Shown here: positions 47,709 through 57,051 of the stretch, in pieces
How the letters are laid out: each line of letters opens with the position of its first letter
Numbering within the stretch: position 1 is the stretch's first letter
Assembly (NCBI RefSeq): GCF_040530035.1
Contig: NZ_JBEWCD010000001.1
Location: 2,170,001 to 2,234,000, forward strand
Direction of reading: 5' to 3'
Origin: Roseibium sp. HPY-6
Lineage (GTDB): Bacteria > Pseudomonadota > Alphaproteobacteria > Rhizobiales > Stappiaceae
DNA: 64,000 bases
The notes under the pieces: model-generated
What the model saw: the letters and a program-made list of their open reading frames with translations, nothing else
Databases searched by the model: none
What the model was told of the DNA's origin: nothing
Translations under genes and position numbers: made by a program

Positions 47709-47944
47709 GCACGCCTCCCGGCTGCATTCGGCACAATTTGACCCATTTTCAAGGCAGCTTGTCGTTGTAGACAAACAGACAGCCGCCGCTGCAGACCAGA
47801 ACGCATAGGATCTCCCGTCCCGGGACCGGAGCATCGCGTGCAGGTTAACGAACACACTTATGCGCCGGCACCTTTGGCGCAATCAACGTTCAACGGTTGA
47901 TCTTGCCGAAAATGACAATGGAGATCCGGGAATAGGCTAAGGAT

Positions 47945-48032
47945 TCCGTCCCTTCGCCGGCATGACCCGGATCAGGTTCTAAGGGTTCGGCTGATCGCCA
48001 TCTCAGTTCCGAAATTCGGAACACCCCTCGGA
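47945..48032 (-). ncRNA. TPP riboswitch (THI element)
   Basis: The minus strand shows the conserved TPP-riboswitch elements in order: GGGGTG, the CTGAGA box (48006-48001), ACCCTTAGAACCTGATC and TCATGCCGGCGAAGGGA. Outer bases TCCG (48032-48029) pair with CGGA (47948-47945) to close P1. It senses thiamine pyrophosphate. The downstream genes are thiX-thiY. The ~235-base leader after it has two weak hairpins but no obvious terminator, so translation or Rho control is possible. Confidence 0.95.
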
Positions 48033-48068
48033 CCAAGGCGGAAGATGCCTTGGTTGATCAGAAAAGGC

Positions 48069-55767: not shown

Positions 55768-56946
55768 TCAGGCGGCCTGAGCGAGGTTCGCTTTTTCGGT
55801 GGCGTAGGCCCAGTCCAGCCAGGCGGTCAACGCGCCGAGGTCGGATGTTTCGACCGTTGCGCCAGCCCAGATACGCAGCCCCGAAGGAGCGTCCCTGTAA
55901 GCACCGATATCAAAGGCGACACCTTCCTGATCGAGGCGCGCCGCGACAGCTTTGGCGAATGCAGCCTGTGCCTTGTCGTCAAGTGCCAGAACATCAGGGT
56001 CTGTGACTTTCAGACAGACGGAGGTGTTGGAACGGGTCTGCGGGTCGACAGCCAGAAATTCTGTCCAACTGCTGCGGCCGACCCAGTCGGCAAGTACTTG
56101 GAGATTGGCATCGGCGCGGGCCCGAAGACCGGCAAGGCCTCCGATACGATCTGCCCATTTCAACGCATCGATGTAGTCTTCAACGCACAACATTGATGGC
56201 GTATTGATTGTTTCGCCCCTGAAAATTCCTTCAATCAGCTTTCCGTCCTTTGTGAGCCGGAAGATTTTGGGAAGCGGCCAGGAAGGCCTGTAACTCTCAA
56301 GACGCTCGACCGCACGCGGGCTCAGGATCAGGACACCGTGAGCAGCCTCGCCACCCAGAACTTTCTGCCAGGAGAAGGTCACGACATCGAGCTTGTCGAA
56401 CGGCAGGTCCTGAGCAAAGGCGGCCGACGTTGCATCACAGATTGTCAGACCTTCCCGGTCTGCTGGGATCCAGTCACCATTGGGAACACGCACGCCGGAC
56501 GTTGTCCCGTTCCAGGTGAAGACGACATCGCTTGTAAAGTCGACCGCCGACAAATCCGGGAGTGCACCGTATGGCGCATCGAGAACCCGCGCATTGTCCA
56601 GTTTGAGCTGTTTCACGACGTCGGTGACCCAGCCTTTGCCGAAGCTTTCCCATGCAAGCATATCGACGCCACGTGCGCCAAGGAGCGACCACATGGCCAT
56701 TTCCACAGCACCCGTGTCTGATGCGGGTACGATACCAATTCGATAATCTTCGGGAACGTCCAGAACCTTGCGGGTCAGGTCTATGGCCTCGGCAAGCTTC
56801 GCCTTGCCCGGTTTGGCACGATGCGATCGGCCGAGCGGTGCATCAGCCAAGCCTTCCAGCGACCAGCCCGGGCGCTTGGAACAGGGTCCGGATGAAAAAT
56901 TGGGATTTGCCGGACGCACGTCCGGCGTGGCAGTGAGACTTGTCAT
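55768..56946 (-). CDS. serC: Phosphoserine aminotransferase
   Basis: Transfers an amino group to 3-phosphohydroxypyruvate, the second step of serine synthesis; PLP enzyme. The 392-residue protein has [30 protein letters not shown] at the start and the PLP-binding Lys in [21 protein letters not shown], of the alphaproteobacterial SerC type. It is the first gene of serC-serA. The ATG at 56946 sits inside a structured leader. Confidence 0.96.
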
Positions 56947-57012
56947 ATCTGTCTACCCTCGCAGATAGTTGCCCCTCGTTGGGGAGGGGTGGCCCACCTA
57001 CGGGGATATGAC
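56942..57012 (-). promoter_or_regulatory. serC leader RNA that can sequester the serC start codon
   Basis: On the minus strand, GTCATATC (57012-57005) pairs perfectly with GATATGAC (56949-56942), which contains the serC ATG. Inside lie a hairpin CCCCTC/GAGGGG (56989-56984, 56977-56972) and a smaller GGTG/CACC hairpin (about 56998-56988). A competing hairpin, TATCTG (56967-56962) with CAGATA (56951-56946), places the AGGG Shine-Dalgarno in its loop. A serC RNA motif is known upstream of serC in Alphaproteobacteria, and this is probably a member. Confidence 0.75.
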
Positions 57013-57051
57013 GTTACACTGCTCCGGTCAATTCAAATCCACTTCTAATGC

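Follow-up and report, generated by a model that had tools for sequence, protein, structure and literature searches.

A serC leader of the RF00517 family in Roseibium sp. HPY-6, with a candidate 5' pseudoknot next to the hairpin that holds the ribosome-binding site

Introduction

The serC RNA motif (Rfam RF00517) is a short leader known upstream of serC in Alphaproteobacteria. In the consulted sections of its original description, in-line probing backs a two-stem structure, the second stem (P2) is proposed to sequester the ribosome-binding site (RBS), the start codon is placed at most 11 nt after the last hairpin, and near-consensus promoters with putative start sites are placed directly before all examples (Corbino et al., 2005; PMC1273637). 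The RNA probed in that study came from A. tumefaciens and covered -46 to +11 relative to the serC start (788249-788193). Seven compounds, including L-serine and pyridoxal phosphate (PLP), produced no in-line change (Corbino et al., 2005; PMC1273637). According to the consulted part of Sherlock and Breaker (2020), Greenlee et al. (2018) extended the serC family; that review also notes, in general terms, that orphan aptamers can escape detection if part of them is lacking. In the consulted portions of the literature on serC leaders and riboswitches, no ligand for the serC RNA was found.

Here, we compare these published features with the serC leader in a stretch of 64,000 nucleotides from Roseibium sp. 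HPY-6 (contig NZ_JBEWCD010000001.1, positions 2,170,001 to 2,234,000), hereafter the window, and with homologous leaders from other genomes. Several claims of a preliminary description of this DNA are taken up where the relevant results are given.

Materials and methods

The first sets of leaders comprise 251 loci (L001-L251), of which 208 were found by nhmmer and 37 were restored from Rfam coordinates; six of the 80 loci located through their SerC protein were excluded from the counts and read by eye. L171, whose 25.3 bits fall short of the Rfam cut-off, was discarded as a false match; three others (L168, L169 and L170) were kept though they also score below the cut-off, and L122, L142 and L161 were excluded for having no ATG. 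Another 59 loci (L253-L311) were passed through a filter (paired P1, C or T as third loop base, and CTG..AGG in P2) that retained 49 of them and could hide other loop letters; the first sets are free of that filter. The resulting 290 leaders reduce to 280 unique ones, and 30 Agrobacterium-like leaders stand outside these 280. The genus of the window is represented by 35 leaders, or by 36 with L176 added, as in the GGUGG/CUAUC and mean-pairing counts. A pattern search covered 101 genomes, 57 of which had a match; matches able to form P1 were chosen by eye and the rest were taken as chance.

We infer that genus g441, here called Agrobacterium-like, is Agrobacterium from telomere-resolvase hits in three g441 genomes together with a coordinate match to the leader of 2005. 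Such hits were obtained in 6 of 199 genomes, with two further genera above the cut-off and one below. The Agrobacterium-like leader lies at 788262-788211 on the second contig; the 8-base shift relative to the published coordinates was taken as a difference in record version, and the numbering of the paper (-46 to +11) was used.

Results

The preliminary description had pointed to the alphaproteobacterial serC RNA motif, and the Rfam search confirms it before serC: RF00517 is matched with 67.8 bits against a gathering score of 35 (Table 1). The window leader has the features of the family, namely two stems, a GNRA loop on P2, and the RBS on the loop and 3' side of that hairpin. The serC ATG (56946-56944) follows P2 after 6 nt, within the published distance, and the leader adjoins serC-serA on the upstream side, as RF00517 members do. 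Downstream on the minus strand, serA follows serC after a gap of 74 bases and is its probable operon partner. Among the 80 loci kept, the nearest named relative by SerC protein is Roseibium album (87% identity). The motif was found in 57 of 61 genomes in the search of relatives and, across the class, in 115 of the 385 genomes sampled at E 0.001, 111 of them above the cut-off. The window leader is an ordinary member of an already known family, to which the window contributes this one further example.

Table 1. Positions in the window of the serC leader, its predicted elements and the flanking genes.
Feature	Positions	Strand	Remarks
serA, phosphoglycerate dehydrogenase, 528 aa	54107..55693	minus	TIGR01327, 666 bits
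serC, phosphoserine transaminase, 392 aa	55768..56946	minus	NF002841, 713 bits; TIGR01365, 697 bits
3' arm GATATGAC	56942..56949	minus	contains serC ATG; exact complement of GTCATATC
serC leader, RF00517	56948..56999	minus	E 8.2e-13; full model, 1-52
Alternative hairpin UCUGC-GAGG-GUAGA	56952..56965	minus	Shine-Dalgarno (SD) in loop; complete in 49/280 leaders, 28/35 in genus
P2 hairpin CUAUCU-GCGA-GGGUAG	56953..56968	minus	GNRA loop; contains RBS; pairs 1-4 vary on both sides
SD sequence GAGGG	56956..56960	minus	in P2 loop and 3' side
P1 hairpin CCCCUC-CCCAAC-GAGGGG	56972..56989	minus	pairs 1-5 vary on both sides; 4/1680 cells unpaired
Candidate pseudoknot 3' strand, P1 loop CCC	56981-56983	minus	predicted to pair with 5' GGG
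Candidate pseudoknot 5' strand GGG	56993..56995	minus	GGG/CCC or AGG/CCU among 280, none mixed
Predicted transcription start	56996..56999	minus	from distance to -10 box
Putative promoter -10 element ATATCC	57004..57009	minus	TA here in 267/280 leaders; overlaps 5' arm GTCATATC
5' arm GTCATATC	57005..57012	minus	inside promoter; probably not transcribed; full pairing in 1/280
Putative promoter -35 element TTGAC	57027..57031	minus	constant distance from P1 in homologues

The motif is missing from 2 of the 37 genomes of the window's genus. In G015 and G016, both of this genus, RF00517 is absent upstream of serC (L284, minus strand, 2697-2677; L285, 1455-1476). At these two loci a promoter-like TTGAC, seen by eye, is directly followed by a 9-bp terminator-like hairpin, a T-rich tail and serC; L182, titled Roseibium limicola, resembles L284 in the same region. 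A terminator scan returned one site in each of L284 and L285 (0.2 and 0.5 expected), and a promoter scan with the general consensus found none in either. Judged from this arrangement, a transcription attenuator may have replaced the serC RNA in G015 and G016. In G037 (L311) the serC gene is diverged (57% identity), with no visible motif, and an Rfam search of the locus up to E 1 gave no match. Elsewhere in the window, a TPP riboswitch (RF00059, 78.1 bits) is found at 47932-48038 on the minus strand.

Both stems are supported by comparison of the 280 unique leaders, in which pairing of P1 and P2 is kept despite changes on both sides. The outermost pair of P2 is absent in 32 leaders and every other pair in none or one; the P2 loop is of GNRA type in 278. 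That the RBS lies in a leader hairpin, as had been suggested, agrees with P2, which holds RAGG in place in 278 of the 280. Translational control of serC, put forward at the same time, matches the proposal already published (Corbino et al., 2005; PMC1273637).

By sequence, the window leader is directly preceded by a promoter. In the homologues, counting from P1, TTGAC occupies positions -42 to -38 and TAT positions -19 to -17, and at least four of the five TTGAC letters together with TA in place are present in 229 of the 280 unique leaders; when the same letters are sought 30 bases further upstream, a single leader of the 280 has them. The letters fit the S. meliloti sigma-70 consensus, CTTGAC-N17-CTATAT, as given in the part of PMC2873474 consulted. 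A general promoter scan requiring TATAAT did not report the serC promoter site. Transcription would thus probably start about 8 bases upstream of P1, with the mRNA 5' end at GGUGGG or nearby. Table 4 of one paper, seen in part, gives the S. meliloti transcript SmelC653 a length of 143 nt and an 'Ov.' of 34 for RF00517; if read as a percentage of the transcript, this value would put the 5' end of SmelC653 a few bases into the motif, which agrees with the promoter, and we attach little weight to it.

At the start of the predicted transcript, the elements follow one another in the order GGG, NCA, P1 5' side, CCC, AMC, P1 3' side, which is the order of an H-type pseudoknot. A three-base linker spanning a six-base-pair stem is sound geometry for such a fold. 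The linkers are ACA, CCA or UCA in 266 of the 280 leaders and AAC or ACC in 278. The two strands read GGG/CCC in 246 unique leaders and AGG/CCU in the other 34, and no leader is mixed. Broken down by origin, all 165 unique leaders of the Rfam-found set are GGG/CCC, and those found via their SerC protein, 67 unique leaders, divide into 63 GGG/CCC and 4 AGG/CCU. The six SerC-located loci that nhmmer missed were, by eye, two AGG/CCU (both titled Devosia), one GGG/CCC, two without the motif and one cut short. The Agrobacterium-like leaders were AGG/CCU in 30 of the 30 read, out of 39 matched, and all P1-forming matches of the 101-genome search were in one state or the other. A search for the AGG..CCU pattern in 397 genomes found it in two, one of which (L252) is by eye not a serC leader. 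With the exception of the dropped false match L171, a one-sided change was found in none of the leaders read.

Both states are found within one family. On a 100-row SerC tree, made quickly and leaving 42 of its 97 inner forks unresolved, six changes of state are needed, at least four of them forced by starred branches; an earlier tree of 82 rows needed four. This pattern of paired substitutions supports a predicted small pseudoknot at the 5' end of the leader, formed between the 5' GGG strand and the loop CCC of P1. The conserved linkers and the covarying strands stand next to P2 and its RBS. The pseudoknot may already be published, the serC model having been updated in Greenlee et al. (2018); a description of it was not found in the consulted parts of the literature on serC leaders and riboswitches.

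Family f6 (L254-L309), which is probably that of Devosia, contains both states, distributed by genus, and has P2 loops of GGGA type; L235 and L247, titled Devosia, read like the leaders of this family. Its leaders would serve well for tests of compensatory pairs.

A further claim of the preliminary description was a long-range stem that hides the serC AUG, built on an 8-bp perfect inverted repeat with the ATG in its 3' arm. The repeat itself is there: GTCATATC (57012-57005) and GATATGAC (56949-56942) are exactly complementary. A repeat of this kind is not clearly above chance: when the 111-base stretch was shuffled by dinucleotides 2000 times, 116 of the shuffles contained one (about 6%), as did 55 of 576 window tiles of the same size (about 10%). 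The window is alone among the 280 unique leaders in having all eight pairs. Seven or eight pairs form in 16 leaders, 10 of them among the 35 of the window's genus and 6 outside it; 1000 shuffles of the partners over all leaders gave a mean of 6.2 such leaders and a highest value of 13. Mean pairing over the 280 leaders is 3.83 of 8, a value reached by none of 1000 shuffles; with shuffled partners it is 3.69. Because the means outside the genus (3.62 against 3.54, reached by 79 of 1000) and within it (5.25 against 5.13, reached by 109 of 1000) are both near the shuffled ones, the overall excess comes mostly from related rows, and the comparison of homologues yields no covariation for the outer stem, an outcome that the preliminary description had itself named as refuting its proposal. 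Furthermore, the 5' arm occupies -23 to -16 relative to P1, some 7-14 bases ahead of where transcription is predicted to start; it overlaps the conserved -10 box and is therefore probably not transcribed. We rejected the long-range stem as an RNA structure on account of this overlap, the single case of full pairing and the chance rate of such repeats. Most likely, promoter letters here match those around the start codon by coincidence, and the case is a caution that a long-range stem picked by eye can combine promoter DNA with RNA.

The same description proposed a competing local hairpin. TATCTG (56967-56962) and CAGATA (56951-56946) are indeed complementary in the window, but all six pairs, with G-U allowed, form in only 16 of the 280 leaders, and since 15 of these belong to the window's own genus the hairpin was rejected as a family feature. 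A register-shifted hairpin, UCUGC/GUAGA (Table 1), has a predicted energy of -4.9 kcal/mol in the window, against -4.8 for P2, and beats P2 in 11 of the 280 leaders, all of the window's genus. ViennaRNA, which does not model pseudoknots, gives from the predicted start a best fold without P2, the 5' GGUGG being paired with the P2 5' side. This GGUGG/CUAUC pairing is complete in 34 of the 280 leaders and in 24 of the 36 of the genus; its mean is 3.21 of 5 pairs against 3.17 for shuffled partners (reached by 3 of 500 shuffles), barely above them, so that it makes a weak case for a family-wide switch. Pairing of the P1 strand CCCCUC with the RBS was dropped by eye; the P1 letters vary in other leaders. 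Of the claimed SD-exposing state, what stands is that it is possible in Roseibium; as a feature of the whole family it does not hold.

Discussion

We read the window leader as a member of RF00517 in which a 5' pseudoknot reads a signal and P2 gates the serC RBS, with the promoter just upstream; we assign this reading a probability of about 0.78. According to this model, the mRNA would begin at or near GGUGGG, and its first 27 or so bases would fold into the small H-type pseudoknot, GGG pairing with the P1-loop CCC across the NCA and AMC linkers. P2, which starts three bases after P1 and ends 6 bases before the ATG, would repress by enclosing the RBS, the role given to it in the published proposal. 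A signal read by the pseudoknot, either a small molecule or a protein, would shift P2 between closed and open, and the state of P2 would set the translation of serC and probably that of serA too.

Two other explanations concern the signal. A metabolite-sensing regulatory protein might bind the element in the manner of PyrR, with no direct binding of a metabolite by the RNA; Corbino et al. (2005; PMC1273637) proposed this after their negative ligand tests, and the small size of the element suits it. We consider it possible though doubtful: the consulted literature on serC leaders yielded no such protein, a riboswitch, too, would be in keeping with a compact pseudoknot whose loop letters are conserved, and the RNA probed in 2005 may have missed part of the pseudoknot. 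P2 could also be a fixed hairpin that gives a constant translation rate and answers to no signal, in keeping with the lack of a reported ligand in that literature, yet a plain hairpin would need far less conservation of linker and loop letters than is seen, as the few linker types kept in 266 and 278 of 280 leaders illustrate, and we find such a static element quite improbable.

The two remaining alternatives invoke other pairings. Roseibium might have a two-state switch of its own between P2 and an SD-open state, formed by UCUGC/GUAGA or by GGUGG on the P2 5' side. The first of these pairings is complete in most leaders of the genus and equals P2 in energy in the window, and the second is frequent in the genus and part of the best ViennaRNA fold when the RNA begins at the predicted start. 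Both, however, largely use letters that are fixed anyway by P2, the pseudoknot and the SD, and the shifted hairpin wins over P2 in few leaders, which leaves this switch unlikely. We give hardly any credence to GTCATATC being present in the RNA and pairing with GATATGAC, so as to hide the serC AUG in alternation with a local SD-exposing hairpin. An RNA that includes the arm, if it were transcribed, would fold with -35.3 kcal/mol (z -3.26), a value matched by none of 200 shuffles, the complementarity is exact over 8 bp, and leaders with seven or eight pairs exceed the shuffled expectation; against this stand the overlap with the conserved -10 box, the single leader with full pairing, the near-shuffled means inside and outside the genus, and the ease with which comparable repeats arise in shuffles and tiles.

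Returning to the pseudoknot that we favor as the signal reader, its position bears on the ligand question of the serC RNA, which has long been open. In the Agrobacterium-like leader the 5' pseudoknot strand is AGG, and a manual count puts -46 at its second letter. Provided that this sequence matches the one probed in 2005, the RNA of that study appears to begin one nucleotide into the strand, missing the A of the A-U pair together with all bases before it, and the compounds without effect may have been tried on a truncated fold. We put forward as a tentative idea, one that we would not bet on, that the serC RNA is a tiny 5'-terminal H-type pseudoknot riboswitch dependent on the 5'-most bases of the mRNA, that the fold of 2005 was shortened, and that the ligand was possibly among the compounds already tried. 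This explanation of the 2005 tests may itself be known already. The pseudoknot pairing in any case argues for including the first mRNA bases in binding tests.

Compared with RF00517 as described, the window leader is alike in score, P1, P2, the GNRA loop with the RBS, the serC-serA context and the upstream promoter; nothing essential differs, and the pseudoknot is absent from the Rfam model. With PyrR-bound leaders, as portrayed in the accounts consulted, the serC leader may share control of a biosynthetic operon through a metabolite-sensing protein, although the protein partner is on the PyrR side only, none being known for serC. The likeness in fold is to the preQ1-I and SAM-II riboswitches: all three are short RNAs whose pseudoknot joins a hairpin to a strand beside it, and in serC this strand lies 5' of the hairpin.
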